Origin: an uncultured Bacilli bacterium
Lineage (GTDB): Bacteria > Bacillota_I > Bacilli_A > ML615J-28 > CAG-698
Direction of reading: 5' to 3'
Assembly: GCA_947627195.1 (NCBI GenBank)
Contig: CANQVC010000017.1
Span: forward strand, 1-32,827
DNA: 32,827 nucleotides
Part shown: piece by piece, positions 12,301 through 32,827 of the stretch
How positions within the stretch are numbered: position 1 is the first letter of the stretch
Layout: every line of letters starts with the position of its first letter
Position numbers and translations under genes: made by a program
Notes under the pieces: generated by a model
The model's database searches: none
What the model saw: only the letters and a program-made list of their open reading frames with translations
Told to the model about the DNA's origin: nothing

Positions 12301-12631
12301 CATCTAAAAATAATTTATGACAATCTTGACATTCATAATATTTAATGTTACCCTCATTAATACATGTTGCATCATTTTCATCATGAAGTTTCATATTATG
12401 TGATGTAATAGGTATTGTAACTTCTGTTACTTCTTCAGTACCTTTATCATCTAAAAATAATTTATGACAATCTAAACATTCATAATATGCAATGTTACCC
12501 TCTTTTTGACATGTTGCATCATTTTTGTCATGGAATTCCATGTTATGAACATGTTCTTTTTGACATCCCACTAAGCAAAATAAACTAAATAATAATACTA
12601 ATAAAAAGCTTTTTTTAATAATTTTTGTCAT
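9305..12631 (-). CDS. Large surface lipoprotein: Cys-rich repeats plus BspA-type leucine-rich repeats
   Basis: 1,108 residues. A signal peptide ends in the lipobox LVGC, so Cys23 should be lipidated and the protein held on the outer face of the membrane. Residues 29-224 are four 49-residue repeats (HNMKxHD..ATC..EGN..YYECxxCHKLF..), then several more divergent units of the C..CxxC..H type up to about 680. From about 687 to the end are LRR_5 (BspA/TpLRR) units such as AIGSYAF, LTIDYAAFYGCTSL and SIPSGTFRG. BspA-type repeats in gut and oral bacteria mediate adhesion; the Cys-rich units occur in many Bacillota surface proteins without a defined role. The promoter and long leader are listed separately. 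It probably forms a single-gene unit. Confidence 0.88.
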   Translation of the reverse strand: MTKIIKKSFLLVLLFSLFCLVGCQKEHVHNMEFHDKNDATCQKEGNIAYYECLDCHKLFLDDKGTEEVTEVTIPITSHNMKLHDENDATCINEGNIKYYECQDCHKLFLDDKGAEEVTEVTIPVLSHNMKLHDKVDATCQKEGNIKYYECLDCHKLFLDDKGAEEVTEVTIPVSSHNMKFHDKVDSTCQKEGNIAYYECVTCHKLFNDQNGNEIIEDITIEMKKHVASEWITDKEATCEEDGIKHKECTSCHTKLEDGTIPALHHDYGNWTHEVIDGIHYHTHVCKNDENHKESVLCQFTTSVEDATCTTKEILTHVCETCEFTYTEDGIDALGHNYQDVTWVFVTEGGETEQDEHTHYHTRICKRCEEVDKQPCKFVVDEVIEPTCTTGGFTRNVCEECGGVHEDTLTNPTDHKWSTWHYDATKQKHIRICENNPEHQEEDVCSFETQTILPTCEDDGYDLLTCLTCQHEERRNTIPALGHDYDEWVYDGDSTPEDNTKHTHTHVCKRDKTHTETKDCVMVETVEAGNCFESEEITTSCKDCHISFTREGAKSLGHKWGKWEMVDEQTHKKTCENDSTHEETNSHQYKIEVNEPTCLENGLKTYTCLDCEYQYTEEIPALTHLWGEWQKKDDTEHIRICQHDENHIETDKHKYTTNNYCDDCHEDGLVYIQEGGHYKVGKNSEMTCKEIIIPSMHNGYPVKAIGSYAFRNSKIEKLTIASSVEEIEINAFLFCEKLQEVKFENDESNLKIIGMTSFQGCKSLVSFDFPVSLLTIDYAAFYGCTSLNNIDLKENVDVIGTNAFYDTAFMNNKDHWVDGVLYLNNHLIKADAKTLKEKYEILDGTVSISDSAFIDCTNLKELILPSSLLYIDYNVFKNCTSLNRVEYKGKMSEWFNIHFLNEYSNPLHYADEFHIDDAEERINIPEGVTSIPSGTFRGTNISSVIIPSTVTSIGAEAFKDCTSLKDIKLPDNLIFIGKDAFLNCGYYQEKTNWTNGLLYLDSYLIAANNDEISDTIKVNDGTKLIISECFINATNLVSITLPKEISRILANTFSGCTKLNCLEILNVGKNWFCNSSMGIGRVLNGDEVDNPTRAARTIIFYSGEWRALS
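11960..12547 (-). repeat. Four tandem 147-bp coding repeats in the lipoprotein gene
   Basis: Four in-frame units of 49 codons each encode residues 29-224. The second and third are almost identical in DNA; the fourth has diverged (VTCHKLFNDQNG). Such arrays can gain or lose units by slippage or recombination, so strain variation in length is expected. Confidence 0.85.
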
Positions 12632-16835: not shown

Positions 16836-18455
16836 TCATATTATTTCTTCTTCTATTTCATATCCTCCCTTTAATACAATTACTATACTATTTTTCATTA
16901 CTTTAATATATGAAACTATTCTTCTAATCATATCATCATTATAAGTAAGCAAATAATGATTATCATCCATTAAAAATTCCTTAATTTTTTCTATTTCAAT
17001 ATTAATTTCTTTTTTTTCTTTTGACTTTTCTCTCTCAATTTCTAATTCATCTCTCAATGAAACGATTTGTAATGTTAAATTTTTAATTTCTTCATCATAT
17101 CTTTTTTTATCGCCTTTAGTGTTTATTCTCATAGAAATAGTATCATCTCTTAATTTGTTTAGTTCATTAATTTGATTTTCTATTGCATATACATTTAAAA
17201 AACAATCATCTTTAGATATTTCATAAGATAAATTATTTGTTATCATACTTACAATTTCTTCTTTTTCGTCTATAACTTTATTTATACTTCTAATAATAAT
17301 TTGTTTTAATTCTTCATCTTCAATACTAATTGAATGTTTACATATTTTTGCACCATATTTAATTCTGTTTAGACAACGCCATACTATTTTCTTTTTATTA
17401 TTTCTTGTCCAACTTTTTCTTCTATAGCAACTACCACATTCACCACAAACTAATAAATCTGTTAATGCATATTTTCCACTATACTTGCTTTTTTTAGTTA
17501 ATCCATTCATTATTGTTTTCTTTTTTGTACATCTTTTAGCTATTTCAAGTTGTACTGCTTTAAATATACTTTTATCAATAATTGGCTTATGACTATTTTT
17601 TATTAAATATTTTGCCATTTCTCCATGATTAATTTTTTTCTTTTTTGAAATACAATTTTCCGTATATGTTTTTTGTAAAAGCATCTCTCCACAATATCTT
17701 TCATTTGTTAATATTCGTAATATTACAGATTTACTCCATATTTCTTTTCCTCTTGTTGTGGAATAATGATTTGATTCTAAATATTCTTTTATTTGATCTA
17801 CACTTTTACCATCTAAATACATTTGATATATTTTTCTAATTATTTCTGCTTCTTTTTCAACTATTTCTGGTTCGCCATTTGCACCTTTTTTATAACCTAA
17901 AATATTATATCTAAAAGCATATGTCCCTGCTTTCATTCTTTGTTGAATTCCCCATCTAACATTAGCACTTATATTTTCACTTTCTGCTTGAGCTAAAACA
18001 CTATAAAACCCTATAAACATTTCACTATCTATATTAAGCGTATTTATATTTTGTTCTTCAAAGAAAATGCCTATTCCTTTAGCTTTTAATTTTCTAACAT
18101 ATTTTAAACTATCAACCGTATTTCTAGCAAATCTTGCAACTGATTTTGTTAAAATTAAATCGATTTTACCCTTTTCACAATCTTTAATCATTTTTAAAAA
18201 ATTAACTCTACTTTTTGCTTGAGTACCACTAATACCTTCATCTGCATAAATATTAACAAATTGCCAACTGGGATTTTTATAAATCAAGTCTGTATAGTAC
18301 TTAACTTGGGCTTTATAAGATTCTATTTGATCCTCTGTATCAGTTGATACTCTACAATAAGCTGCTACCCGTAAAATTTTATAACTATTTTTTTCAATTG
18401 ATAACATTGGATTGGCTTCTATTTTAGTTACTATCTTTCTTGATTCTATCTCCAT
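16836..18455 (-). CDS. Large serine recombinase (third gene of the triplet)
   Basis: 539 residues, complete. The resolvase domain starts VAAYCRVSTD with the nucleophile at Ser37. YADEGISGT and ILTKSVARFARN carry the conserved Arg residues, and AEEE-like AQAESENISANVRWG follows. The Recombinase domain (about 180-290) holds NILGYKKGANGEPEI and SVDQIKEYLES. The zinc ribbon is CGECG...WRCLNR...KIC, followed by a coiled coil with a hydrophobic C-terminus. Such enzymes integrate and excise elements between attP and attB. It starts 1 nt after the TGA of the gene before it, so it is translationally coupled, and it ends at the terminator 16695-16733. Confidence 0.93.
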   Translation of the reverse strand: MEIESRKIVTKIEANPMLSIEKNSYKILRVAAYCRVSTDTEDQIESYKAQVKYYTDLIYKNPSWQFVNIYADEGISGTQAKSRVNFLKMIKDCEKGKIDLILTKSVARFARNTVDSLKYVRKLKAKGIGIFFEEQNINTLNIDSEMFIGFYSVLAQAESENISANVRWGIQQRMKAGTYAFRYNILGYKKGANGEPEIVEKEAEIIRKIYQMYLDGKSVDQIKEYLESNHYSTTRGKEIWSKSVILRILTNERYCGEMLLQKTYTENCISKKKKINHGEMAKYLIKNSHKPIIDKSIFKAVQLEIAKRCTKKKTIMNGLTKKSKYSGKYALTDLLVCGECGSCYRRKSWTRNNKKKIVWRCLNRIKYGAKICKHSISIEDEELKQIIIRSINKVIDEKEEIVSMITNNLSYEISKDDCFLNVYAIENQINELNKLRDDTISMRINTKGDKKRYDEEIKNLTLQIVSLRDELEIEREKSKEKKEINIEIEKIKEFLMDDNHYLLTYNDDMIRRIVSYIKVMKNSIVIVLKGGYEIEEEII

Positions 18456-18456
18456 T

Positions 18457-19314
18457 TCAATATTCTCCTATCATTATTTCTATTTTTATATCATTTAAAA
18501 AAATAATTTCTACCACACCTGTTTTATTAATTTTAATTTTTTTAATTACCTTTCTAATATATTCATTATTAATATCTTGAATGTTTTTTATCTTTTTTAT
18601 ATTTTCAATGATATATTTTGTTTCACCATTTAAATATGTTTTATAGCTTCGGAATCTTTTACTAGCCATTTCCATAATTATTTTTTTAGTTGTATTAAAA
18701 TTTTCTATTTCGTTTTCCAACAACTTTTTAATATCATTTTTGTATTTCATTTCAGCTAGTAATATTTCTTTATTTTTATCTATATCGTTTTTTTCATTAA
18801 TTTCATTTCTATTTAAAAATTCAATAGATGCAAAATAAATTGATTTAATAAGGTCATCTAAATATATATTTTTTTCACATTTACATCTGTTTTTACACTT
18901 TAATTCTCTTTTCCCATATGAAGTTTTTACTAGATTATATGTTCCACCACAGAAGCTACAATTAATTATTCGCTTTATATTTTTTTCTAAACTACTACAA
19001 ACGATGTTTTTACAACCTTTACTTATTTTTAACTGATTTGCATTAGTAAAATCATCAATATTTATAATCTTAGGATAGTTATTTAAACCAATATATTTTT
19101 TTTCTTCAATAATTCGATTGATTTTGTTCTTATTCCACGTTGCTTGATTTTGGCTAAACGATATATGTCTTTCATTTAATTTATTTGATATTTCTTTTAA
19201 AGACTGTCCGTTTATATAATTTTTAAATATTTCTTTTACAACTTCAGCTTCCTGTGAATGAATTGTAATTGTGCCATTTTGAATATAATATCCATATATT
19301 ATATTTCTATACAT
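18457..19314 (-). CDS. Serine-recombinase homologue lacking the catalytic domain (middle of triplet)
   Basis: About 285 residues. The protein begins directly in the Recombinase DNA-binding domain (NIIYGYYIQNGTITIHSQ, EVVKEIFKNYINGQSLKEIS). It then has a zinc ribbon (CSFCGG...CKNRCKC) and a coiled-coil tail like its neighbours. There is no YCRVS catalytic block, and the preceding DNA belongs to the end of the upstream gene, so the resolvase domain is absent and not merely frameshifted. I chose ATG at 19314 (GGTGA site); TTG 19329 or GTG 19326 would add five or four residues and overlap the previous gene. It may be an accessory DNA-binding subunit, for example a directionality partner. That is inference. 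Confidence 0.8.
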   Translation of the reverse strand: MYRNIIYGYYIQNGTITIHSQEAEVVKEIFKNYINGQSLKEISNKLNERHISFSQNQATWNKNKINRIIEEKKYIGLNNYPKIINIDDFTNANQLKISKGCKNIVCSSLEKNIKRIINCSFCGGTYNLVKTSYGKRELKCKNRCKCEKNIYLDDLIKSIYFASIEFLNRNEINEKNDIDKNKEILLAEMKYKNDIKKLLENEIENFNTTKKIIMEMASKRFRSYKTYLNGETKYIIENIKKIKNIQDINNEYIRKVIKKIKINKTGVVEIIFLNDIKIEIMIGEY

Positions 19315-19318
19315 TCTA

Positions 19319-20860
19319 CTATTCACCAACTTCCATATTTAAATTTAAATCTCCTATTAAACGAAATGTTAATGTTCTGTCGGTTTCAACAAATATTTTA
19401 TCAACCATTCTGTTGAATAACTCTAAATTGAATTCAATCATATAATTTTCTTCTTCAACTATTTTTTTTAATTCTTTTAGCTGTTCTACAATTAATTCAT
19501 CTTTATCTTCTCTAATTAATTTTTTTCTTCCGCTTTTTAAAAAATCTAAACTTTTGCTTGCTTTATTCATTTTTTCAACATAAGATACTTCATCAATTAA
19601 TGAAAGATTGTATAATTCATTATAGGATTCAATCATTTCACTAAGCGAAAAAATCTCTTCATCAATTTCACTTATCTCTTTGTTTGTTTCATTTTCTTTA
19701 TTTTTCAAAATCATAAGAAATGAGATAGTATCATCTATAATAAATTTTTTGATATCTTTTAACTTATTAAACATTTGAATAAAACATTTTTTAATAGAAA
19801 AAGTTGAAAATGGGATAGCATTGCAATCTGTAATAAAATTTCTTTTTTTAGAACACACCCAATATACATCATCTTTTCTTTCGATAGAGCGATAACGTTG
19901 ATGACAATTTCTACATTCAATTTTATTTGTAAAACAAAAATATTTTTTTTCCGTACCATGAAAAAATTTTTCTCTTTTTGCCTTTCTTATTTGCTGAGCT
20001 AAATTATAAATTTCTTTTTCGATAATAGGTTCATGATTATTTTCATAATAATACATAGGAAGTTCGCCTTTATTTAATCTTTTTTTTAATGGTAAACTAT
20101 TAGGAGTATATGTTTTTTGATTAAGAGAATCACCTATATATTTTTCGTTATTTAAAATATATCTAATTTGTTCAATTCGAAAATCTAATTGATTTTCTTT
20201 TTTTAAAATACTTGCAATTTTATATGTCCCCATTCCATTTATATATAATTCAAATATTTTTTTAACAATTTTTGCTTCTTCTTCATTAATTACTAATTCG
20301 TTCTTGTCTAAACGATATCCATATGGTGCATTTTTTAATTTATAAGTTCCATCAGCCATTTTCATTCTAATTGAAGTTGCCATTCTTCTAGATGCTCCCA
20401 ACACTTCATCTTGAGCAAATGCACTTTTAATGTATAGAATCATCTCTGAATTCATATTTTTTGTATCAATATTATCATTTTCAAAAAATACACTAACACC
20501 ACAAGAGGATAAAGTTCTAATAGTTTCTATACATTCCAATGAATTTCTAGCAAAACGTGTAACACTTTTTACAAGTATTCGATCAATCTTTTTATTCATA
20601 CAATCTTTTATTAATCTTTTAAAATCTTCTCTTTTTTCTATTGAAGCTCCACTAATTCCTTCATCTGCATAAATATCAACTAAAATCATTTCTTGACTAT
20701 GATTTTTAATATATTCATTATAATAATTAATTTGCGCAAAAAAAGAGTTTGCTTGATCATTTGAATCTGTACTTACTCTACAATATGGAGCAACTCTTAT
20801 TTTTTTATTTTCATCTTCCATTGATGAAATTACGATTACTTCTTTTTTTGTATTATTCAT
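19319..20860 (-). CDS. Large serine recombinase (first gene of the triplet)
   Basis: 513 residues. The catalytic block APYCRVSTDSNDQ has the nucleophile at Ser30. YADEGISGAS and ILVKSVTRFARN follow. The usual Glu-rich helix here reads AQDEVLGASRRMATS, more divergent than in the 539-residue enzyme. Recombinase domain: APYGYRLDKNELVINEEE. Zinc ribbon: CRNCHQRYR...WVCSKK. A long charged coiled coil follows. Triplets of serine recombinases are known from some Firmicutes ICEs, from memory including streptococcal ones. It is transcribed after the SHOCT-like gene, 11 nt away, and its 3' end overlaps or touches the start of the catalytic-domain-less gene. Confidence 0.92.
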   Translation of the reverse strand: MNNTKKEVIVISSMEDENKKIRVAPYCRVSTDSNDQANSFFAQINYYNEYIKNHSQEMILVDIYADEGISGASIEKREDFKRLIKDCMNKKIDRILVKSVTRFARNSLECIETIRTLSSCGVSVFFENDNIDTKNMNSEMILYIKSAFAQDEVLGASRRMATSIRMKMADGTYKLKNAPYGYRLDKNELVINEEEAKIVKKIFELYINGMGTYKIASILKKENQLDFRIEQIRYILNNEKYIGDSLNQKTYTPNSLPLKKRLNKGELPMYYYENNHEPIIEKEIYNLAQQIRKAKREKFFHGTEKKYFCFTNKIECRNCHQRYRSIERKDDVYWVCSKKRNFITDCNAIPFSTFSIKKCFIQMFNKLKDIKKFIIDDTISFLMILKNKENETNKEISEIDEEIFSLSEMIESYNELYNLSLIDEVSYVEKMNKASKSLDFLKSGRKKLIREDKDELIVEQLKELKKIVEEENYMIEFNLELFNRMVDKIFVETDRTLTFRLIGDLNLNMEVGE

Positions 20861-21738: not shown

Positions 21739-22098
21739 TTAATCTGAATATACTAATTCATTTAAAATTCTATTTTCAATAATCATTTTTACTTCATTTT
21801 CTCTCAATAAATCTGTAACATAATTCCCTGTCTTTCGATATTCTTTTTTAGTTGATAGATTGTTATACATCGTTGAATACATTTTATCAGCCTCAAAATC
21901 AATATTATGAAGATATTCAATTAATGAATTACCAAGCGCTATATATTTACCATAATTGTGATTTTCTAGATATTCTTTTGCAAGAATTCCATATTTACCA
22001 AATACTTCTTTTTTGATTTTACTTCCTTTTTGATAGCCAATTATTTCCTCCTTACTAAACAGTGTTTTTTCTTTTTTTAATTCTTTAGAATTTTGCAT
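21739..22098 (-). CDS. tnpV: TnpV family transposon protein
   Basis: 119 residues matching the TnpV layout known from clostridial transposons. A basic start is followed by KYGILAKEYLENHNYGKYIALGNSLIEYL, HNIDFEADKMYSTM and the typical end ENRILNELVYSD (compare ...NSIRNRAEEIILNELIYS). TnpV is found next to serine-recombinase modules, where its role is unproven. The gene has a GGAGGA site and a consensus promoter with palindromic operator directly upstream, so it heads the operon that leads to the recombinases. Confidence 0.75.
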   Translation of the reverse strand: MQNSKELKKEKTLFSKEEIIGYQKGSKIKKEVFGKYGILAKEYLENHNYGKYIALGNSLIEYLHNIDFEADKMYSTMYNNLSTKKEYRKTGNYVTDLLRENEVKMIIENRILNELVYSD

Positions 22099-22175: not shown

Positions 22176-24869
22176 TTAACTAATTAAAAAAGCTACTCCT
22201 CTTACTAAATATGGTATCGCTACAATAATAACAAAAATTATAACCAATCCTATTATATAGTTTACTAACATTTTTTTAGCCTTTGCTTTATCTTCATTTT
22301 TATGAGCAATAATAATTGCTATTCCCATAGCAATACTCCAAATTCCACATGTTGCCAGTAAAATCCATATAATATAAGGAATATAAGTATTTGTTATATT
22401 TATGACATAATTAGCTACTTTTTCATATTGATTACCTATTTTTTCTACATAAATATCACCGCACAATGAACATTGATATGTTCTTTCAATAACTCCATCT
22501 TCATTTTTTTCTTCTATTAATTCATAATTATGCGAAAGAATAGGAATAATTTGATTATATGAATCACTACATTTATCGCAGACAAATAGCCTTTCGCCAG
22601 TCGCTTCACAAGTTGCTTCATTTACTATTTTACTTATGTAACTATGTCCATAAGGTAAAATTTCATTTTCTAAAAACTCATAATTACATATACTACACAC
22701 ATGAAATGTTCCTCCACTTTCAGTGCAAGTAGGTTCTTTTTCTTTTTCTTTAAAGCTGTGTCCGATAGCTTCTGTTACTTCGTCAATATAATTATCTTCA
22801 CATCTTACACACTTATAAAGAGTATAACCTCTATCCATACATGTAGGCAAAACTACTTTTTTATCATATGAATGTCCTAAAGCATTAGTATAATAATCTT
22901 TGTAACTATTTTTACATACTTCACATTCATAATAGGTAAAGCCTTTTTCTAAACAACTTGCTTCAACAATTGTTTCATTATAACTATGTTGAACTAGGTC
23001 TGTTACATTTGTTCTTAATTTTGCACCACACGTTATACATTCATTTAATGTATATCCCATTTCTATACAACTTGGTTTAATAATATTTACGACTTTATAT
23101 TTATGAGATATTGTAAAATCGTAATTCCTAGTTTTAAAATATGAATTAATTACAACCACATGATATGTATTTTCTTCACGAATAATTGCTCCACTATAAT
23201 AAACTACTCCATTAATCCTAACGTCATAGTCCATATCAGTCCAACTTAATTTATAATAATTTGAGTTTTCAAAATATTCAATATTGATTTCTGGAAACGG
23301 AAACTCTAATTCAATCCATACTTCGTCACTTTTATTTTGATATTTATCAACTGCATAAAATCGATAAATTCCTTCATCCATTTGAGTTGTAACATTGAAT
23401 ATTATGTCTGATGAATTATGAAATATAGAATCATTAGGTCCTTTGTAGTATAAAGTAAATTTACTCGCATCACTAGCGCTAACTGAAAAATCATTACTTG
23501 TAGATGATCCAAATGAAGCCCCATTACTAATCAATATTGGAGCCTCATTATCTAATGTCACTGAATATGTTATTGATTTATTTCCAGCAACATCATAACA
23601 ATAAATCATATAAGTTCCATTTTCTGTATATCTATCTACTTTAGTTATTAAACTATAAGTATCAGATGATGGTGTTTTTAAAAATATACTGCTAACAGTA
23701 CTTCCAGTACCATCAAAAGAAAATGTAATATATTTCGCATTTGTAAATCCATTATTTAAAACAACATCAGTTTCACCATATATTTTAATAAGTGGTGCTT
23801 TACTATCTAAATATACTTCTCTTTCAGCAGAATAATTTCCAGCTTTATCAATTGTTCTAAATGAATATGTTCCATTAGTGCTATTAGCTTCTATCAATTC
23901 ACCATTGTATATCTCCCAGCCTGAATTAGGTTTCTTACATTCTAAGCGTTCAATTCCACTTTCATTATCTGTTCCTTTATATCTAAAACTATAATTTACA
24001 ATACTTCCTGACATTCCATTTCCACTAGAATTATATAACATACCCGTTGGAATTTTATCATCATAATTTACATAATATGTACTACTTTTGTTTTGTGCTT
24101 TATCAATTGCATAAAATTCATATAATCCTATTTTCCCTTTTTGAATTGTTATGGGATTATCTACTTTCTCATATGAACTTGAATCAGGAGATTTCATATA
24201 TAGATCAACTCCATTATTTCCATTATCACTTGCACTAACAATAAAACTTGTATTTTTATAATAATCTGTTTTATTTGTAGAAGCACCCATAATAATTGGC
24301 TTTGTACTATCTATTATGAATGAATATGAAATATTATATGTTGTAGTACTTTGTGTATAATTTGGATATGATGACATATAATCACCTGAGTGCCATTCTA
24401 AATTAATATAATATGCTCCATCACTTAATGTGCCATTAAATAGGCAAGTTGGTTGACTTGCTGTATTGCTACTTGTTACAACTGTCCCATTTATATTACG
24501 TATAGAATACGAATTAATTGTTGAGCCTCCTCGAATAGTATAATCCGTCTCAACAAATATAGAAACACTATTAAAATTAAAAATACTGCCAGATGCAGCT
24601 TCAACAGTTGATTCCTTTGACAATGGTTTTTTTAAAGTTATTTTTAGTGTCTTGGGATAATAACTTCCTGCTTCAAGTACACTATCACTTCCATTTGTAA
24701 TTGTAGGTGATGGCATTCCATATCCTATAAATGATTTTGTATAATCTACTTTCAAAAGATAATTTGTTGGTGTTGCAGCTTTTACAAAATTTTTCTCAGA
24801 TGTAAATATTAAGCCAAAAGTCAAACTTACAACAACAATTGCCACAACTATTTTAATGATTTTTTTCAT
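22176..24869 (-). CDS. Large exported protein: Ig-like repeats, Cys-rich repeats and a C-terminal pilin-like domain
   Basis: 897 residues. A signal peptide ends near FVKAATPT. After a beta-rich N-domain, Ig-like repeats run over about 185-545, each ending in a phrase such as YLDSKAPLI or TLDNEAPIL and containing YxFYAIDKAQNKS. From about 597 to 805 are Cys-rich units (C-x9/10-CxxC-...-H). The last ~80 residues hold two membrane segments around IIIAHKNEDKAKAKKML...YIIGLVIIFVIIVAIPYLVRG, closely matching the separate 98-residue pilin-like protein at 28756-29052 (IAIAHRNEEKINARDMI...IIGIVIIFVVAMGAPLLIKG). It lies last in the conjugation operon, 17 nt after virB4. An exposed adhesin carried on a pilin-type base is the likely reading; this is inference. 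Confidence 0.85.
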   Translation of the reverse strand: MKKIIKIVVAIVVVSLTFGLIFTSEKNFVKAATPTNYLLKVDYTKSFIGYGMPSPTITNGSDSVLEAGSYYPKTLKITLKKPLSKESTVEAASGSIFNFNSVSIFVETDYTIRGGSTINSYSIRNINGTVVTSSNTASQPTCLFNGTLSDGAYYINLEWHSGDYMSSYPNYTQSTTTYNISYSFIIDSTKPIIMGASTNKTDYYKNTSFIVSASDNGNNGVDLYMKSPDSSSYEKVDNPITIQKGKIGLYEFYAIDKAQNKSSTYYVNYDDKIPTGMLYNSSGNGMSGSIVNYSFRYKGTDNESGIERLECKKPNSGWEIYNGELIEANSTNGTYSFRTIDKAGNYSAEREVYLDSKAPLIKIYGETDVVLNNGFTNAKYITFSFDGTGSTVSSIFLKTPSSDTYSLITKVDRYTENGTYMIYCYDVAGNKSITYSVTLDNEAPILISNGASFGSSTSNDFSVSASDASKFTLYYKGPNDSIFHNSSDIIFNVTTQMDEGIYRFYAVDKYQNKSDEVWIELEFPFPEINIEYFENSNYYKLSWTDMDYDVRINGVVYYSGAIIREENTYHVVVINSYFKTRNYDFTISHKYKVVNIIKPSCIEMGYTLNECITCGAKLRTNVTDLVQHSYNETIVEASCLEKGFTYYECEVCKNSYKDYYTNALGHSYDKKVVLPTCMDRGYTLYKCVRCEDNYIDEVTEAIGHSFKEKEKEPTCTESGGTFHVCSICNYEFLENEILPYGHSYISKIVNEATCEATGERLFVCDKCSDSYNQIIPILSHNYELIEEKNEDGVIERTYQCSLCGDIYVEKIGNQYEKVANYVINITNTYIPYIIWILLATCGIWSIAMGIAIIIAHKNEDKAKAKKMLVNYIIGLVIIFVIIVAIPYLVRGVAFLIS

Positions 24870-24886: not shown

Positions 24887-27502
24887 TTATTGGTCTTCAA
24901 ATAATCTTTTTACACTTTCCAACGTTACTATTTTTATCATATTTCTTAACTCTGTTGAACCAATGAAAAATGTTTCTCCTGTAGCTGCTGATATAATCAT
25001 TCTTTGTTCTTCATCGTTGAAACTTTCGCCCGCTTTATAAACATCAAGTACATCTTTCATATCTGGTGCAGATAATTTAAATATAAAAGTATATTGACTA
25101 TTCTTTAAAATTGTAGAGGTTTTATTTCTTAGTTCTTCATTCCCATTCCAGTCTGCTATATTTTGTGTTGCTGGTATAAATGCACCATTATATTTTCTTA
25201 TTCTTTTATTCATTGAATAAAAAAAGTCGAGCGCTATTGGAAACTTACTATCAATGAACAAATGTGCCTCATCACATACAATCATTGTCCTTAAATTACT
25301 ACCATTTCTATTCAATTCTCTTGCATTAATTATTTCCTGTTCAATAAATCGAAAGACTAATAACATTTGAGCATTTGCAACTACATTATTTTTGTTTGCA
25401 AATAAAGATTGAAAATTGAAATCTATTAAATTAGCATTTACTTCCAATGTCGATGGAGCATTCCAAATATCTGAATATCTTCCATTCACAAATTTTTCTA
25501 AATAAAGTTCTGCCGTTCTTAAATCTTTTAATGACAAATTATCTAAAGACGATTTATCTTTATTTTTAAGAACATTTAATAAATCACTAAAAATAGGATA
25601 GTCATTTGCTGATAAAGAACTGCAATCCGTTTTCTCTGTAATACCTTTTAATGCATATGCTTCAACCGCTAAATTATTAATCAATTCTATAACATCACTA
25701 CTTGCTCCTACCATTACAATTTTAAAGAATGATTCGAGCATTTTAAGATGTGTATTAAACGTAATAACAGAATCAGCTATAGATCCATCTTCTGATAAAA
25801 TTTTATAAATATGAAATGGATTAATTCTTCCTTCTTTTGCGTTTCCTACATCAATAATATTTCCATAAAGATTTTTGGTTAGATGAATATATTCCGCTTC
25901 TGGATCTAAAATAATTACTCTAGTATCATTTGCCCATTCATTGCTTATTAAGCTTTTAAGAAAAAATGATTTTCCACTTCCACTTTTACCTATTATCATA
26001 GCATTTGAGTTTTGATAAAGATTACCCCTTTTCCACAAATTAAAAATAAAGGGATAATGATTATTTTTGTTTTCCCCAAGCATAATACCTCCATCATCCA
26101 TTACAAATGTTTTAACAAAAGGAAAAACTGCTGCAAGAGTAGAGCTATTAATTCCTCTTTCATAATTAATCAAATTTTTCTCTGGATTAATGCTTGATAT
26201 TTTAAAGCCATCAATTTGTAAACCATATAATGTTGAAATTTTAAAATTTTTAGACATGATTTCTCTTTTAACTTTTTTCTTATAATTAATGTCATTTAAA
26301 TAGTTATATGTGGTAATTGTAAAACTAACATCAAATAAGTTTTCATTTTCAGCTTGTAACCTATCTAGCAAAGTATTCATTGATTCACGATGTATTTGTG
26401 CTTTGTTTTCTTCACTTGCCTTTTCACTTATTATTTCCTTTGTTTCCATTTCTGATATACACTTATCTATTCTTTTAATTGCTTTATATTTATCAACTGG
26501 TTTAATTCTCATAACAACTTTTGTATTGGGAATATTAAATATTTCACTGCCCCAAGCATTTTTAGCTCTTAATGGATAATCACTTATTATCATTGTTGAA
26601 GCTTCAATATTATCTATCATATATTTATTTGCATTAAAAGTCACTTCATTAGGTTCTATCCAATTCACCAATTCATTTTCTGGGATATTTTTTATTTCTC
26701 TTTCATCAAAATTTCTTGAATTAGAATATTTTAAAAATATAGCAACTTCATTCTGATTTAAAATTTTACTATCTATTCCACATCTTGTCATTCTACTTGC
26801 TATATTAATTGTTACATTATCTAAATCAAGTTCGTTTTTACCATAAATAACAAAATAAAAATCAGATAAATATTTTTTTCTAACATTATTTAATTTATCA
26901 ATTCTATCTATTCTTTCCTGCAAAATTTCAGCTTTGATTTTTTGAATTTCTTTTTTCTCATCTTCTTTAATATTATTTAACCTTTCAAATAATTCTTTAG
27001 AATAAATATCTAGATTTACTGGTCGATCTATTTTTACTATATCTAAAAATTGAGTTGCATCTAATTCTTTTAAGGCATTCTCAAAATAATCAATATCTAG
27101 ATTTTGTTCATTAATATCTTCTATTCCAAAGTTTTTCTGCCCTATTTTTATAACTCTTCCAAAATAACCATTTTGATATTCAATTGTTCCACTTGTTTTT
27201 ATATTTTTTAATGAAACAATTCTATTAATATTTTCTTTTGGCTTTTGACTATTTTTTTTAAATTTCTTTTTTGAAAAAAGAAATTTAATGTTTTCAAATA
27301 TATATGAATAAAATATACCATCACTCGTTGGCATAAACATAACTATTGATAAAAATAACAGAAAAATTGCAAAACCCCATTTGTTTTGAGTTATTAAAAT
27401 AAAAATAAGCATAAATACTATTAGCGCAACAATAACATCAATAATGCTATACGATTTCCATACAGTGTTTTTTACTTTGATTTTTTTAGGTATTATTCTC
27501 AT
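24887..27502 (-). CDS. virB4: Conjugal transfer ATPase VirB4/TraE (Mbov_0397-like) with N-terminal PrgI-like membrane part
   Basis: 871 residues. Residues 1-75 contain two membrane segments (SIIDVIVALIVFMLIFILI and WGFAIFLLFLSIVMF) like a fused PrgI/VirB3 domain. The VirB4 N-domain follows. The ATPase core has Walker A MIIGKSGSGKSFFLKS (about 505-520), IILDPEAEY, Walker B MIVCDEAHLFI (about 740-750) and PATQNIADW. VirB4 powers assembly and substrate transfer of the type IV secretion channel at the membrane. It starts 2 nt after the VirB6-like gene stops. The order pilin-membrane protein-VirB4 is that of the Mycoplasma bovis ICE families Mbov_0395-0397. Confidence 0.93.
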   Translation of the reverse strand: MRIIPKKIKVKNTVWKSYSIIDVIVALIVFMLIFILITQNKWGFAIFLLFLSIVMFMPTSDGIFYSYIFENIKFLFSKKKFKKNSQKPKENINRIVSLKNIKTSGTIEYQNGYFGRVIKIGQKNFGIEDINEQNLDIDYFENALKELDATQFLDIVKIDRPVNLDIYSKELFERLNNIKEDEKKEIQKIKAEILQERIDRIDKLNNVRKKYLSDFYFVIYGKNELDLDNVTINIASRMTRCGIDSKILNQNEVAIFLKYSNSRNFDEREIKNIPENELVNWIEPNEVTFNANKYMIDNIEASTMIISDYPLRAKNAWGSEIFNIPNTKVVMRIKPVDKYKAIKRIDKCISEMETKEIISEKASEENKAQIHRESMNTLLDRLQAENENLFDVSFTITTYNYLNDINYKKKVKREIMSKNFKISTLYGLQIDGFKISSINPEKNLINYERGINSSTLAAVFPFVKTFVMDDGGIMLGENKNNHYPFIFNLWKRGNLYQNSNAMIIGKSGSGKSFFLKSLISNEWANDTRVIILDPEAEYIHLTKNLYGNIIDVGNAKEGRINPFHIYKILSEDGSIADSVITFNTHLKMLESFFKIVMVGASSDVIELINNLAVEAYALKGITEKTDCSSLSANDYPIFSDLLNVLKNKDKSSLDNLSLKDLRTAELYLEKFVNGRYSDIWNAPSTLEVNANLIDFNFQSLFANKNNVVANAQMLLVFRFIEQEIINARELNRNGSNLRTMIVCDEAHLFIDSKFPIALDFFYSMNKRIRKYNGAFIPATQNIADWNGNEELRNKTSTILKNSQYTFIFKLSAPDMKDVLDVYKAGESFNDEEQRMIISAATGETFFIGSTELRNMIKIVTLESVKRLFEDQ

Positions 27503-27504
27503 AT

Positions 27505-28683
27505 CTAACTTTCTTCTCCTTCACTAGTTTCACCATCTTCATTATCTAGTGTTTCCTTATATTTATTGCTATCATCATTTTCTTTCTTTTCATTATTTCC
27601 TTTTCTATGAGTAACGTTTCTAACACCTTTTATTAATTTCGAAGCGACTCCAATTGTCATTGCACTTGCAATTCTTGTACCATAAAAAGCACTTCGCAAA
27701 AATGTACCACCTGCATGCATATCATCTGCTTGTCCAAACATTTTTGCAAATAATGCTTGTCCACTAGGAATAACTAATGCTCCTCCTATTATCATAAAAA
27801 TTAAAAATATCGAATTTGCGAAATTCGATGCCCCAACAACACGCATTTTTGAAATCATTGGGAAAATCAAAACAAAAATATTAACTGAAAAAATTGTTCC
27901 ATATGATAATAAAATCTTTGTAATAAAACTTTCACGCCATACTTTAAATCTTGCACCATCATCTAATGCTATTGTAGACATAGAAAAAGGTAAACTAATA
28001 TATAAAAGCATTATTTCATATACTCTTTTTGCTAAATTAACTATTGCAACAACTAAAGCTATCATTAAACCAATTGATGCAATCATTGCAGGTAAATACA
28101 TAAAGCTATTGGGATTTACCATTCCATTGCATTTCCACCCCGTTGGCCATATTCCAAATAATGCTTTGTTATAATCACCAAATATTTCTCTAACAGATAG
28201 TGACGAAACATTTACCTCATTTATACTATATCCATTTAGCCACTCACCTACACAAGCATTGAATACAGCATTTGATAATTTTGTTGTATTTCCTATTTCA
28301 AATATTTTAGAAACCAAAACTAAAATAGAATTTGATATTAATATTCCCAAAATAACTACTGCAAGCATAGCCATTGTTCCAAGTAATGATAGAAAAAATT
28401 TACCTAATATTGAAGACAGATTTCTATTACTTGCAATAAAATTTTTTATTATTGCACAAATTGTAAATATACAGGTCAAACCTATTGCCAAAATAAAAAC
28501 ACACCAAAATATAGTTCCAACAGTACTATCAGATGCTAAAAATTCAATAATATTAACTTCCTTACCCTGATATGTAACGTTTGTTACTCCTGCAATTGCA
28601 CTAAAAATTTCCATAATTCCATCTATTAATTTTAAAAACCAAATAAATATCAGTAAAATTAATTCTTGAAAAAAAATTAACAT
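27505..28683 (-). CDS. VirB6/TrbL-like conjugation membrane protein (Mbov_0396-like)
   Basis: 392 residues with about seven or eight membrane segments, for example ELILLIFIWFLKLIDGIMEI, FWCVFILAIGLTCIFTICAII and MIASIGLMIALVVAIVNLAK. A central loop has WPTGWKCNG, then LLYISLPFSMSTIALDDGARFKVWRESF, and the C-terminal tail is charged and cytoplasmic (about 345-392). The pattern resembles the ICE transmembrane protein family placed directly before the VirB4-type ATPase in mycoplasma ICEs. It would form the inner-membrane core of the secretion channel. The annotation rests on topology and gene order more than on motifs. Confidence 0.8.
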   Translation of the reverse strand: MLIFFQELILLIFIWFLKLIDGIMEIFSAIAGVTNVTYQGKEVNIIEFLASDSTVGTIFWCVFILAIGLTCIFTICAIIKNFIASNRNLSSILGKFFLSLLGTMAMLAVVILGILISNSILVLVSKIFEIGNTTKLSNAVFNACVGEWLNGYSINEVNVSSLSVREIFGDYNKALFGIWPTGWKCNGMVNPNSFMYLPAMIASIGLMIALVVAIVNLAKRVYEIMLLYISLPFSMSTIALDDGARFKVWRESFITKILLSYGTIFSVNIFVLIFPMISKMRVVGASNFANSIFLIFMIIGGALVIPSGQALFAKMFGQADDMHAGGTFLRSAFYGTRIASAMTIGVASKLIKGVRNVTHRKGNNEKKENDDSNKYKETLDNEDGETSEGEES

Positions 28684-28755: not shown

Positions 28756-29052
28756 TTAGGCGCCTATACCAACCCAGCTTGCTAAACCTTTGATTAATAA
28801 TGGAGCTCCCATAGCTACAACAAAAATAATCACTATTCCAATAATTAAATTTTTAATCATATCACGTGCATTAATCTTTTCCTCATTACGATGTGCTATT
28901 GCGATTTTAATACCTACATATGCACCCCATACAACTACAACTGCAGCAAGTGCCATTACAATATAAATCCAAAAACTATTCATCAATTCATTTAATTTAG
29001 TTATAATCCCTTGTAGAGATTCATTTAAAGTTGCTTCTGCTAAAAATTTCAT
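28756..29052 (-). CDS. Pilin-like conjugal transfer protein (Mbov_0395/VirB2-like)
   Basis: 98 residues. A short amphipathic N-part (LNESLQGIITKLNELMNS) is followed by a membrane segment, FWIYIVMALAAVVVVWGAYVG, a basic cytoplasmic loop, AHRNEEKINARDM, and a second segment, LIIGIVIIFVVAMGAPLLIKG. Two hydrophobic helices joined by a short charged loop is the VirB2/TrbC pilin design, and the NEEK loop is typical of the ICE pilin-like family. It would form a short pilus or the outer conduit. It lies just upstream of the VirB6-like and virB4 genes. The same domain recurs at the C-terminus of the 897-residue protein. Confidence 0.82.
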   Translation of the reverse strand: MKFLAEATLNESLQGIITKLNELMNSFWIYIVMALAAVVVVWGAYVGIKIAIAHRNEEKINARDMIKNLIIGIVIIFVVAMGAPLLIKGLASWVGIGA

Positions 29053-29072: not shown

Positions 29073-30557
29073 TTATTTTCTTTTTTTTATTTTTATAAAT
29101 ATAATAATTCCACTAATTCCAAGGCCTAATAATACAATTGTCAAAATAATAGGCACAATTACCTTTACTTTATTATCGTTTTTATTAGTACTAGGTAATA
29201 CTTCTTGTTTATCTTTTTCATTATCATTTGCATTTTCTTTATCACTTGGCGAGACATTTTCAATATCTTGATCTAAATCTTTATCGTTATCTACTGGTAC
29301 ATCTTGAATTGGTTCATCTTCTTTTGGAGGTGATACTTCTTCACCAGAATAATTACTATTTTCAATAACAAAACTAGTTATAATTACACCTTTTTTATTT
29401 AATATAGTTATTTGACAATTGTCTTGCAATATTGAAAAATCCACATAACCATATTGATTTATTTCCAAAATTATACTTTTATCATTAATTGTTGTAGCAA
29501 TAAGTTCTAATTCATTATTATTCACATTACCACATTCACATCTATTACTAATAAATAAAAGCTTTCTTATTTCGTCTAATTCTGTATAAAGCATATAATC
29601 GTGAATATGTTCTACTACTTGTGGTGGATCATTATAACTATTATCTTGACTTGTTGAAAAATTTGATAAATAACTATAATCACATCTATTACAAACGTGT
29701 TTAATACACCCTATCGTTCCATTATCCGAATTAATTAATACGTCAAAAAATTCATGTCCTAATGGTTTAATATAATCCGTAACATATCTATCGTTACATA
29801 CACTACATAAATGTTCCGTAAAACCATATGATGAACATGTAGCACTTATTTTATTTTCAGTATAGCTATGACCAAGTGGCATCGTATATTTACCCTGATA
29901 ACTATAATCACACGCTTCACAACGATAAGTTGTAAATCCACCCTCTAAACAATTAGGCTTCTTTTCATCCTCGTTAAATGTATGTCCTAATTTACTAATA
30001 TAATTATCGTTATATGAATAACCACAAGCATCACACAAATGATGCGTATATCCATCCGTTTCGCATGTTACTTCTTTTATTTCATCTATATAATGATGTC
30101 CTAAGGCTTCACTAAATTCATCTGTATATTCATATCCACAAGTTGTACAAAAATATGTTGTATAACCTTTATGAGTACATGTGGGCTTTACAACTACTGA
30201 TTTGTACGTGTGATTTCTTTTTTTACTTGTAATTTCTTTGTAATTAAAACCACACATCCGACATGTATAACTAATATAAGATCCATCTTCACAACTCACA
30301 TCAATAACTTTTTCTTCAAAATCATGATTTAATCGCTCTATGTAATTATCCTTATAAGTTTCATTACAATAAACACAAGTATAGATTGTATATCCATCAC
30401 TTGAACAAGTTGCACTTATTTCTTTTTGCTCATATAAATGTTTACAATCTTCATTTTCTTTAGCATAAATATTTGTTTTTAAATATCCTAAAAAAATTGA
30501 TATAATAAAAACACTAACAATTATGCCATAAATAAAATATTTTTTTATTTTTCTCAA
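29073..30557 (-). CDS. Cys-rich repeat surface protein of the conjugation operon, possible LPxTG-like anchor
   Basis: 494 residues from a TTG start with a perfect AAAGGAGG site. A signal peptide or anchor occupies about 8-28. Seven Cys-rich units of about 41 residues follow (about 38-330), each C-x9/10-CxxC-x12/14-H with the phrase LGHxY. A beta-rich domain and an acidic, Pro/Asp/Asn-rich linker follow. The end has LPSTN, a hydrophobic helix (VIVPIILTIVLLGLGISGIIIFI) and KIKKRK, the order of a sortase sorting signal but with Asn in place of Gly. The protein is thus either wall-linked or simply membrane-held. Position between coupling protein and pilin suggests a role in cell contact during transfer. 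The repeat family itself has no known function. Confidence 0.82.
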   Translation of the reverse strand: MRKIKKYFIYGIIVSVFIISIFLGYLKTNIYAKENEDCKHLYEQKEISATCSSDGYTIYTCVYCNETYKDNYIERLNHDFEEKVIDVSCEDGSYISYTCRMCGFNYKEITSKKRNHTYKSVVVKPTCTHKGYTTYFCTTCGYEYTDEFSEALGHHYIDEIKEVTCETDGYTHHLCDACGYSYNDNYISKLGHTFNEDEKKPNCLEGGFTTYRCEACDYSYQGKYTMPLGHSYTENKISATCSSYGFTEHLCSVCNDRYVTDYIKPLGHEFFDVLINSDNGTIGCIKHVCNRCDYSYLSNFSTSQDNSYNDPPQVVEHIHDYMLYTELDEIRKLLFISNRCECGNVNNNELELIATTINDKSIILEINQYGYVDFSILQDNCQITILNKKGVIITSFVIENSNYSGEEVSPPKEDEPIQDVPVDNDKDLDQDIENVSPSDKENANDNEKDKQEVLPSTNKNDNKVKVIVPIILTIVLLGLGISGIIIFIKIKKRK

Positions 30558-30578: not shown

Positions 30579-31292
30579 TTATTTAGTTGCTAAATTTTGC
30601 AATTCCATTAATTCTGGCATTGCAATTTTTGATATGTATTCAGCTAGATCTTCTATTTTTTGGGCAATGGTTAAATCGTATTTATCTATTAATTCATATA
30701 AAATTATTATTTTATCTTCAAAACGTGTTTCAATTAATTTTTCACGATCTTTCTTTTCAAGCATTGTTGATAAAAATTCAATTCTTTTATTAACATCATC
30801 TATAATTTCATCCCATTTTTTATCAAGTTCTTTTAACTTATTAATATCATACTCCTCATTAATCACGTTATCTTCATCTAATTTATTAATTTCATCGATT
30901 ATTTTATCGTATGTACTTACTCCATCCTTATTTATAATATCAAAGACATAATTTTCTTTTTCGAATAATCTTGCTTCTCTTTTAGACGTGTTTTTTTTAT
31001 CTTCACTAAAATAAAAATGTTTTAATTCATAACTAGGAGTAAAAACTGCCCAAATTGGTTCATATCCTCTTACTGAAACTATTGCATTTCCTTTCTCATT
31101 GCCATTTAGTCTTTCAAGCATACCCATTGTAATAAGCGGTTGATTACTTGCCCCTGTATTACTTGATGCCGATGTTGTAATACTTGTATTAACTGAAAAG
31201 TTCTTAATTTTTTTGTTACCACATAATTCACTAAATTCTTTTCGTGTTTCATTATCATCACTACCAATGAATATTTTTACATTCCTATTCGC
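30579..31292 (-). pseudogene. virD4: C-terminal fragment of a VirD4/TraG coupling protein
   Basis: About 237 residues remain. NVKIFIGSDDNETRKEFSELCG, then LITMGMLERLNGNEKGNAIVSVRGYEPIWAVF, is the C-terminal end of TraG/VirD4 coupling ATPases, which bring the DNA-relaxase complex to the secretion channel. A charged helical tail follows. The Walker motifs and N-terminal membrane anchor are missing. The open frame could start at an ATG at 31322, but that codon lies inside a terminator hairpin of the neighbouring foreign operon and the first ~10 residues are not coupling-protein-like. The break at about 31290-31297 coincides with a jump in G+C. It is either an insertion/deletion junction or an assembly join. 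Confidence 0.75.
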
Positions 31293-31304
31293 TCCGTAGG
31301 GATA

Positions 31305-31337
31305 GAAAAACGACGCAATCATTTCTGACTGCGCCGT
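31305..31337 (-). terminator. Strong terminator of the small-gene operon at the junction
   Basis: A 12-bp stem (ACGGCGCAGTCA/TGATTGCGTCGT, two G-U) with a GAAA loop is followed by TTTTT on the minus strand. Its G+C content is unlike the DNA to its left. It ends the transcript of the genes at 31388-31874. Confidence 0.8.
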
Positions 31338-31387
31338 TCTGCGTTTTTCTTATTATATCAGTTAAAAACAGTTATCTCATTGAAAAT

Positions 31388-31627
31388 TCAATCGTCATCA
31401 TTAGGCAAGTGCCATCCGTGTTCACGATGAATGCTCGGTGCTTGCGGTTCTTCGTTTTCCCAAGCCCTTTTACTCATTTCTCTGTCAAATCTGCCCAACG
31501 TTGTATGACATTCTTCTCGATAATCATCATCAAAATTCGGATTGCAAAAATCCTGACGAACCTTTTCTCGTTCAGCACTTAATTCCTCATCAGTCGCATT
31601 GCTAATCCACTTATCTTTATACTTCAT
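31388..31627 (-). CDS. Small conserved protein of clostridial type, unknown function
   Basis: 79 residues, hydrophilic: KWISNATDEELSAEREKVRQDF, then TTLGRFDREMSKRAWENEEP and an end HREHGWHLPNDDD. Proteins of this look are common in Clostridia mobile regions, but I know no function. It has a GGAGGAAAT site, lies 19 nt after the ribbon-helix-helix-like gene and shares its promoter and terminator. Its codon use is clearly richer in G+C than that of the conjugation genes. Confidence 0.7.
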   Translation of the reverse strand: MKYKDKWISNATDEELSAEREKVRQDFCNPNFDDDYREECHTTLGRFDREMSKRAWENEEPQAPSIHREHGWHLPNDDD

Positions 31628-31646
31628 TTATTTCCTCCATAGAACT

Positions 31647-31874
31647 TTACTTGGATTCGTTATCGGATTTGTGCTTTAAGGCTTCATATCCATCTCGGAT
31701 AAAATCAACCTTTGTCATCCCATTTTCTTTAAGAAAAGCGTTTATTTCGTCAAAAAGTTCTCTCGGTATCATCGTTTGAAAATTCCCGCACTTCGCCTTA
31801 CGCTTTTCCTTATTCTTTTCCTCATACTTACGATTCGCACGACGTTGCGGTGTATCTTCTTTTCTTGTTACCAT
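31647..31874 (-). CDS. Ribbon-helix-helix-like regulator, paralogue of the gene at 21168-21392
   Basis: 75 residues. It aligns along its length with the 74-residue protein inside the element: RKEDTPQRRANRKYEEKNKEK against RQEETAQQRAWRKYNEKHKEE, then IPRELFDEINAFLKENGMTKVDFIRDGYEALK against LPKEDANEINEFLKKYNLKKVDLIYTGYQRLK. The strand-helix-helix order fits Arc/CopG repressors. It has an AGGAGG site and is first in its operon, behind a promoter that overlaps an hsdS inversion repeat. Confidence 0.68.
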   Translation of the reverse strand: MVTRKEDTPQRRANRKYEEKNKEKRKAKCGNFQTMIPRELFDEINAFLKENGMTKVDFIRDGYEALKHKSDNESK

Positions 31875-31921
31875 AATCGCCTCCTACAAGCGAAATATTA
31901 CATAGAGCAAATTCTCTATTG

Positions 31922-31950
31922 ATTATACCATAAATGATAATTTAGCGCAA
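31922..31950 (-). promoter_or_regulatory. Promoter of the small-gene operon, overlapping the left hsdS inverted repeat
   Basis: On the minus strand TTGCGC (31945-31950) and TATAAT (31922-31927) are 17 nt apart. The 18-bp inverted repeat 31930-31947 fills the spacer and half of the -35. Inversion of the hsdS cassette would change the -35 to ATTCGC, so the promoter may be stronger in the present orientation. Confidence 0.6.
31930..31947 (+). repeat. Left inverted repeat of the hsdS cassette
   Basis: ATAAATGATAATTTAGCG encodes the HsdS linker INDNLA in the plus-strand frame. An exact inverted copy lies at 32664-32681. Confidence 0.85.
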
Positions 31951-32661
31951 ATGCTTCGGTTGCTTTACGAGCAATGGTTTTATCGGTTTGAGTTCCCAAA
32001 TGAGCAAAATTTACCGTATAATCGAGCAAACGGAGAATTGGAATGGAACGATAAACTGAAAAGACGTATTCCCAAAGGATGGAAAGTTCAGACAATGCTT
32101 TCTAACGAGTTGTTTTCAGTTATTTCAAGTGGTATAGACCGCTTTTCGACTAAAAAATATTATGCTACGGCAGATATTATCGGTACTTCGATTGGCGAGG
32201 GAAGCGATATTGAATATGAAACAAGAGAAAGCCGCGCTAATATGCAACCTGTCATCAATTCGATTTGGTTTGCAAAAATGAAAAACAGCATTAAGCATTT
32301 GTTCCTAAACAAAGAGATGAGTTCTTTTGTCGATAACTCTATTCTTTCGACAGGCTTCTATGGGTTAAAGTGCAACGAAATCTCTTTTGAATATATCGCT
32401 TCCGTTGTTTCTGCACCTATATTTGAAATCACAAAAGATAGATTATCTCACGGAGCAACACAACAAGGAATTGGCGATGATGATATGGCAAATATAACTC
32501 TTTTAATTCCCGATGACACAATTCTTCGTAAGTATCACGAAGCAACAAAAGGTTTTTTTGCTAAGATATCAAACAATATTTTGGAAAATAAGCGGCTAAT
32601 TGCTATCAGAAACTTTTTACTTCCGCTTCTAATGAACGGTCAAGCAGCCATTGCCGAGTAA
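31951..32661 (+). CDS. hsdS: Type I restriction specificity subunit HsdS, C-terminal half (second recognition domain)
   Basis: 236 residues from the first ATG; the frame is open further left through the inverted repeat (INDNLAQ). LLYEQWFYRFEFPNEQNLPY...LKRRIPKGWKVQTM is the phrase that opens the second target-recognition domain of HsdS. The domain then runs to GATQQGIGDDDMANITLLIP and ends in a conserved coiled coil (LRKYHEATKGFFAKISNNILENKRLIAIRNFLLPLLMNGQ). The first half is missing. There is no ribosome site or promoter for it in this orientation, so it is probably a silent cassette. Inversion between the flanking repeats would join it in frame to the minus-strand linker at 32640-32777. 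Confidence 0.85.
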   Translation: MLRLLYEQWFYRFEFPNEQNLPYNRANGELEWNDKLKRRIPKGWKVQTMLSNELFSVISSGIDRFSTKKYYATADIIGTSIGEGSDIEYETRESRANMQPVINSIWFAKMKNSIKHLFLNKEMSSFVDNSILSTGFYGLKCNEISFEYIASVVSAPIFEITKDRLSHGATQQGIGDDDMANITLLIPDDTILRKYHEATKGFFAKISNNILENKRLIAIRNFLLPLLMNGQAAIAE

Positions 32662-32777
32662 TTCGCTAAATTATCATTTATACAATTGTTGCGTTCAATT
32701 TTTTTCGTCAACAGCGATAAAATCTTTACAATCTTCTTTTGCTCCAAAATATGTGGAATTGAGCTGGCTATGTAAAT
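32640..32777 (-). pseudogene. hsdS: HsdS central-linker fragment joined to the right inverted repeat
   Basis: The minus-strand frame reads IASSIPHILEQKKIVKILSLLTKKIERNNCINDNLA, the end of a first recognition domain plus the central coiled coil of HsdS. After the repeat it runs into a short out-of-context tail (NYSAMAA) and stops. The frame is closed upstream by TGA at 32778-32780, so the first recognition domain is not in frame in what can be seen; a frameshift or a decayed donor copy would explain that. The other minus-strand frames beyond 32695 are open to the window edge but I do not recognise them. Confidence 0.6.
32664..32681 (-). repeat. Right inverted repeat of the hsdS cassette
   Basis: This is the exact inverted copy of 31930-31947. 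It also encodes INDNLA, in the minus-strand frame. The 716 bp between the two repeats form the predicted invertible segment. Confidence 0.85.
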
Positions 32778-32827
32778 TCAATAATTCTTGCCTCATCTCG
32801 CTTCTCAATGTAGCATCCAAATTTGAA

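Follow-up and report, generated by a model that had tools for sequence, protein, structure and literature searches.

The locus described here raises the question why a large exported protein of a conjugation operon should end in a domain that resembles the small pilin encoded in the same operon, and what such a protein would do in the mating apparatus. The gene lies on the minus strand (the earlier note named no strand) at positions 22176..24869 of the window, by which we mean the whole analyzed stretch of 32,827 nucleotides from an uncultured Bacilli bacterium. It was called as an open reading frame of 897 aa, and the same fusion follows virB4 in related elements. The earlier note had placed a signal peptide, Ig-like repeats and Cys repeats ahead of the tail, and all of them could be found. 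The predicted signal peptide (residues 1-34, 24768..24869, this and all following parts on the minus strand) is hydrophobic from residue 4, followed by a VKA-A site. It leads into a variable N-terminal region (residues 35-190, 24300..24767), which AlphaFold2 models as beta structure and which has a mean pairwise identity of 0.27 in the family. Residues 191-592 (23094..24299) form Ig-like beta domains of the OmpL47 type according to the family model NF047446 (45.8 bits, cut-off 40), the modeled beta strands and Foldseek. A Foldseek search of the PDB with the full model matched fragments of the Aureispira grappling-hook protein GhpA with low TM scores, and the informative part of this result is just the generic rod of the Ig/Fn3 type. 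The region that follows (residues 593-808, 22446..23093) contains five C-x9-C-x2-C repeats, most of them with a conserved His 12-14 residues further on, and C601, C611, C614, H704, C715, C725, C728, H742, C754, C764, C767 and H780 are invariant in 23 homologues; this region is likely to bind metal. The same type of repeat is common to both surface proteins of the element (29073-30557 and 22446-23093), is found in a BspA-type LRR surface protein elsewhere in the window (9305-12631), and is represented by few or no Cys pairs in the large surface protein of sister elements without the fusion.

The protein ends in the pilin domain (residues 809-897, 22179..22445), a two-helix hairpin with a charged loop, AHKNEDKAKAKKM, which is matched by the Pfam family T4SS_pilin (PF18895) with an E-value of 5.6e-4 and 20.4 bits, under the cut-off of 26.6. 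In the AlphaFold2 model an all-beta ectodomain is followed by helices at 814-857 and 861-896, whose counterparts in the 98-aa pilin-like protein of the operon are helices 2-53 and 59-93. As the pTM of the two models is low (0.40 and 0.53), we took secondary structure alone from them. An LPxTG motif is absent from the last 60 residues of the fusion, Pfam reported no adhesin domain in the 897-aa protein, and VirB5 families were matched neither in the fusion (Pfam and NCBIfam) nor in the 23 homologues (Pfam).

The operon runs on the minus strand in the order surface protein with Cys repeats, pilin, VirB6, VirB4 and fusion. The first of these genes (29073..30557) encodes 494 aa with Cys repeats, a single transmembrane segment and a basic tail, ending LPSTN-TM-KKRK in a sortase-like manner; its match to NF053819 is weak and it has a counterpart in related elements. 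The stand-alone VirB2-like pilin of 98 aa (28756..29052) was recognized by NF045849 (E 2e-6) and PF18895 (E 1e-5) and is modeled as a hairpin. It is followed by a VirB6-like membrane protein (27505..28683; NF045848, 178 bits, cut-off 90) and by a VirB4 ATPase of the Mbov_0397 type with a VirB3/PrgI-like N-terminus (24887..27502; NF045975, E 2.5e-168, 561.6 bits and thus just below the cut-off of 590). Fusion, VirB4, VirB6 and pilin genes are co-directional, separated by gaps of 2-72 bases, which agrees with the claim of the earlier note that both genes belong to one operon. Downstream of the fusion lie a TnpV-like gene (21739..22098, minus strand; PF14198, 38 bits), similar to ORFs after the fusion gene in L003 and L080, and three tandem large serine recombinases of 513, 290 and 539 aa (16836..20860, minus strand; PF00239/PF07508), the probable integrases of the element. 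The order of ORF sizes in this downstream region, TnpV-like gene and recombinases, is shared with the more complete relative L080, which has a resembling trio of 539, 302 and 535 aa and, upstream, a relaxase-position gene, a VirD4-sized gene, a surface protein and a pilin. In L076 the relaxase-position gene gives a weak match to PF03432, followed by a gene that clearly encodes VirD4. The window also contains a Type III restriction-modification-like pair (ResIII and N6_N4_Mtase, 3155-7221) and an AAA_21 ATPase with a small partner, RloB-like by eye (800-2711).

Upstream of the operon, the window holds just the C-terminal part of the VirD4 coupling protein (30579..31322, minus strand; TraG-D_C, 31 bits), corresponding to residues 502-735 of an intact relative. 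Residues 1-505 together with the relaxase gene are found at the end of another contig of the same genome (G000:C16:1-1690, L193). As the parts of virD4 are located on two contigs, the gene is interrupted, either by inserted DNA or through misassembly of the draft genome, and on this ground the copy of the element in the window may be inactive or immobile. An intron as the cause was rejected, as there was no Rfam match. The DNA at the break (window 31293-32827; G000:C16:1-1690) contains small ORFs and one ORF that looks like a type I restriction S subunit by eye and has no match in Pfam.

Is the tail of the fusion truly related to the stand-alone protein? BLASTP aligns the C-terminal 69 residues of the fusion to the 98-aa protein with 30/69 identical positions (43%, E 9e-8). 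Both tails are short and hydrophobic, and composition alone can make two-helix hydrophobic segments match; therefore, we ran shuffle and hairpin controls. The alignment of residues 809-897 with the 98-aa protein scores 160, compared with a top score of 103 among 5,000 shuffles preserving the hydrophobic/polar pattern and a best score of 63 among 911 real non-pilin two-helix hairpins from the fetched loci. A profile-profile comparison of the fusion tails with the stand-alone proteins resulted in a probability of 99.2% (E 1e-19, 85 columns), and a search of the entire 1.84-Mb genome with the fusion-tail profile hit two places only, the fusion tail and the 98-aa gene. These controls and the profile E-value rule out a chance resemblance of two hairpins, and a fusion made by chance or assembly in a single genome can practically be dismissed too, as the fusion recurs in more than 20 independently assembled genomes. 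The likeness of the two C-termini on which the earlier note was built is thus borne out by significant profile similarity. Judged from their sequences, the last ~85 residues of the fusion are a true homologue of the 98-aa pilin-like protein, and we are almost certain of this homology and of the conserved context of the fusion.

A further question is which component of the type IV secretion system (T4SS) this shared domain represents. A VirB3-like small membrane subunit would be in line with the description of CDS13 and CDS15 of mycoplasma ICEs as VirB3-like (PMC12857230). The first ~100 residues of the VirB4 match VirB3/PrgI-type proteins, which elsewhere are encoded before virB4, with 97% probability (E 4e-11), whereas the pilin-like proteins reach 0.3% against VirB3-like proteins. 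As the VirB4 of this element already carries VirB3 at its N-terminus, the small protein should be VirB2-like and not VirB3. T4SS_pilin also matches 22/23 fusions at E 0.01 or better (best 3.5e-7). The profile comparison thus rules out the pilin as a VirB3, and we regard it as very unlikely that small protein and tail are VirB3-like subunits and not pilins. With ~70-120 aa expected for a VirB2-like pilin, the 98-aa protein has a fitting size and the fusion (511-1,096 aa) does not; the two-helix hairpin with a charged loop occurs in both proteins according to AlphaFold2 and the distribution of charges, and a topology with both termini outside would go with it. A VirB2-like protein is the better assignment, although the window's own scores lie under the curated cut-offs (25.8 bits for PF18895, cut-off 26.6, and 27.3 bits for NF045849, cut-off 40). 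The term conjugative pilin in the earlier note is fair as a family name (T4SS_pilin, Mbov_0395 family), although the single-sequence matches in the window stay below these cut-offs. A sequence search of the PDB with the pilin profiles gave no significant match and no solved VirB2 pilin, and Foldseek with the helical, low-pTM pilin model found nothing, as expected of a bare hairpin. In four genomes that read TGA as Trp (L033, L034, L035 and L038), the iterated pilin profile recognizes a small protein encoded close to VirB6 (E 1e-14 to 1e-17), which suggests that the small protein of the mycoplasma-type ICE is VirB2-like rather than VirB3-like.

To see how far the fusion extends beyond the window, GTDB genomes were searched with VirB4 as anchor, which gave 80 loci, and the iterated pilin profile was run on the ORFs of these and of 40 same-class loci. 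We anchored the context analysis on VirB4 and the pilin domain because a homologue search with the whole protein returned mostly Cys-repeat matches in unrelated surface proteins. In total, 26 fusion ORFs of 511-1,096 aa were obtained, one of them counted twice under two locus ids. Wherever the VirB4 is at least 60% identical to that of the window and virB4 and the downstream region are intact, the fusion is located immediately after virB4, typically with a 4-base overlap, so that the expected linkage to virB4 holds in structurally intact loci. None of the sister elements with a VirB4 of 36-41% identity has a fusion. Deviations were found in L087 and L091 (a Pumilibacter intestinalis isolate), where a stop or frameshift breaks the ORF ahead of the pilin tail (an in-frame TAG in L091), in L099, where the fusion lies ~3 kb past a shortened VirB4 ORF, and in L102, L104 and L106, where VirB4 is truncated and the fusion is absent despite enough downstream DNA. 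The fusion occurs in Clostridia MAGs of rabbit, ruminant and other origin, in Candidatus Borkfalkia and Pumilibacter intestinalis and, among the Bacilli, in the window, L046/L097 and L052; plasmid records contained no fusion. When 24 whole genomes of the clade were searched, 23 gave matches, and in nearly all of them the long pilin-ended frames are accompanied by further pilin genes, which mostly share the contig at a distance of 6-8 kb; G528, G532 and G549, whose loci are cut at the contig end, are the exceptions. Wherever a long pilin-ended protein was seen among the 24 genomes, other signs of the element were there too; homologues mainly outside conjugation operons, which would have spoken against the reading of the earlier note, are not the pattern in this set. 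The elements with the fusion belong to a single clade of integrative conjugative elements, with hosts among the Clostridia and the Bacilli.

Other enlarged pilins were observed in the same data. A second kind of fusion, ORFs of 249-291 aa with an unrelated ectodomain of ~180 aa and the same pilin domain, is located before virB6 in L083, L092, L099 and L107, often as two tandem genes. Furthermore, 45 genomes of another family of this class, f11, contain a separate T4SS (loci L060, L061, L063 and L065), and in the loci examined the gene before virB6, i.e., in the VirB2 position, encodes a signal peptide, an ectodomain and a two-helix tail (791, 438 and 426/224 aa); three of these proteins match T4SS_pilin weakly. 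Enlarged pilins may thus be a wider theme, and the ectodomain-bearing pilins of the separate f11 system point to more than one origin of the principle. In a group with VirB4 of 36-38% identity an ORF of ~3,200-3,300 aa follows directly 3' of virB4 (L114, L116, L122-L125, L127, L129, L135, L140, L143, L144, L146, L148 and L151), and pilin and VirB6 were not recognized nearby.

In the pilin tree the fusion tails form one clade (support 95/87, 94% of bootstrap trees), which is nested in the set of the element family's own pilins (100/99); the short alignment (88 columns) means that the exact sister of the fusion tails is not fixed by the tree. The tail of G028/L097 is strongly diverged with a branch of 2.4. 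According to this topology the VirB2-like pilin of the element was duplicated once, long ago, and the copy was joined to an Ig/Cys-repeat surface protein. Averaged over the same 13 elements, identity reaches 0.82 in the stand-alone pilin, 0.80 in VirB4, 0.73 in the fusion tail and 0.68 in VirB6, but 0.40 in the ectodomain of the fusion and 0.41 in the single-pass anchor with which the neighboring surface protein ends. In three close pairs (L093/L094, L090/L103 and L083/L099) the dN/dS of the tail is 0.05-0.08; the ratio is 0.28 for window/L052 and 0.5-0.7 for pairs with the diverged L097 tail, in which the sites are near saturation. The pattern indicates that the pilin part of the fusion is under purifying selection, while the ectodomain differs in sequence and repeat number.

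These data bear on whether the tail is just an anchor. It is unlikely, in our estimation, that a pilin-derived hairpin merely holds an adhesin beside VirB6/VirB4 by pilin-type contacts, with neither a filament nor a mixed polymer being formed, but adhesins without pili are the rule in Gram-positive systems (PMC12857230), the tail is predicted to be at least a two-helix membrane hairpin, and docking by pilin contacts is compatible with its conservation. A plain anchor, however, would not need the 31/89 invariant columns of the tail, and the single-pass anchor of the neighboring surface protein keeps 3/58. As conservation of the tail far exceeds that of the ectodomain and of the neighbor's anchor, its role probably goes beyond hydrophobic anchoring in the membrane, and it is probably maintained as a pilin-like surface.

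We slightly favor, as the best explanation of the whole, that the fusion belongs to the mating apparatus of one family of integrative conjugative elements as a conserved structural component, and its role as a co-assembling contact arm is about an even call. The ectodomain would be exported by Sec, and the two tail helices would remain in the membrane in pilin topology, with the N-terminus outside, the charged loop inside and the C-terminus outside. The charges of the hairpin (loop +5/-2, flanks +1/-1 and +1/0) follow the positive-inside pattern, and with an N-out topology one would expect an exported domain to be attached N-terminally, as it is here. Because the fusion-bearing elements normally also encode a plain pilin, the fusion would most simply be a minor subunit that joins the small pilin, in a mixed assembly or on top of it, where VirB6 and VirB4 form the base. 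The Ig/Cys-repeat rod, roughly as long as a Gram-positive wall is thick, would then project from the pilus or channel and touch recipient cells; an adhesive function seems feasible from the type of repeats and their rapid divergence.

The same ectodomain could instead serve as a wall-spanning conduit, in which several copies ring the channel by their pilin bases and the beta rods form a peptidoglycan sleeve replacing VirB8/VirB5, adhesion being secondary. Read by length and neighbors, genes for VirB8-like and VirB1-like proteins are not apparent in the operons, which would leave the two large Cys-repeat proteins as the only sizeable exported parts, and the presumed rod length is of the right order. 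But an ectodomain of 0.40 identity and variable repeat number in proteins of 511-1,096 aa is unusual for a channel wall, and we consider the conduit rather improbable. The contact arm, by comparison, would merge in one chain the roles that are held elsewhere by VirB5 and wall-anchored adhesins, following the logic of two-domain tip adhesins. FimH-like tip adhesins of chaperone-usher pili likewise have an N-terminal binding domain and a C-terminal pilin domain in one chain, with a pilin fold and assembly route unrelated to those of the fusion.

Among known conjugation systems the gene order pilin-like protein, VirB6, VirB4 and large surface protein is alike in the mycoplasma-type ICE (Mbov_0395/0396/0397; ICEA CDS15-CDS16-CDS17-CDS19), and with its family models the VirB6 of the window scores above and the VirB4 slightly below the cut-off. 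Unlike the fusion, the large protein after virB4 in these ICEs has a single C-terminal transmembrane segment and no pilin domain, and their integrase is a DDE transposase (PMC6030558), whereas the element in the window has serine recombinases and no DDE transposase was identified among the scanned ORFs of the window. Disruption of CDS19, a part of the channel module, abolishes transfer (PMC6030558); the large protein is conserved after CDS17, the VirB4 (PMC7648426), and we infer from size and place that it is the positional counterpart of the fusion. T4SS_pilin/VirB2-like pilins including the pilin arrays of Patescibacteria (PMC12102498) likewise consist of a two-helix hairpin with a charged loop encoded near virB6/virB4, and some loci have several paralogous pilins, as do some elements here; VirB2 pilins are small, however, and the fusion has ~800 additional exported residues. 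PrgB of pCF10 and the thioester-domain conjugation adhesin of B. subtilis (PMC8092201) are also large exported repeat proteins within conjugative elements, but PrgB has an LPxTG/sortase anchor and a polymer adhesin domain (PMC12857230), where the fusion has a pilin anchor and no LPxTG. With the pilus-tip proteins VirB5 and CagL the fusion would share the role of a contact-making minor subunit on a VirB6 platform (PMC12857230), although VirB5 has no sequence match to the fusion and is separate from the pilin. In open-licence papers we came across no conjugation system with a surface protein ending in a pilin, and the architecture, which is real and conserved, is apparently undescribed.

According to a 2025 review of T4SSs, Gram-positive conjugation systems encode no pili, with the exception of Patescibacteria, and frequently have wall-anchored adhesins (PMC12857230). 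We counted this statement, together with the fact that no pilus is known for the element family, against the co-assembling contact arm, as we did the missing match to a solved VirB2 pilin and the divergence of the G028/L097 tail. It is a tentative suggestion, which we would not expect to hold, that a genuine conjugative pilus or stub of the VirB2 type is made by these Gram-positive elements and that the fusion is the adhesin built into it, a minor pilin with a contact arm that evolves fast and has the length of the wall. If true, a type IV secretion pilus would have a two-domain tip adhesin, and this in bacteria reputed to lack conjugative pili. How Gram-positive conjugation machines find and hold recipients is so far understood only for a few LPxTG adhesins, and the fusion ties a contact arm and a pilin together in one conserved protein. 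It is also a marker for a widespread, unnamed family of elements in gut Clostridia and Bacilli, and with it the question whether Gram-positive conjugation systems make pili can be reduced to a one-gene test.
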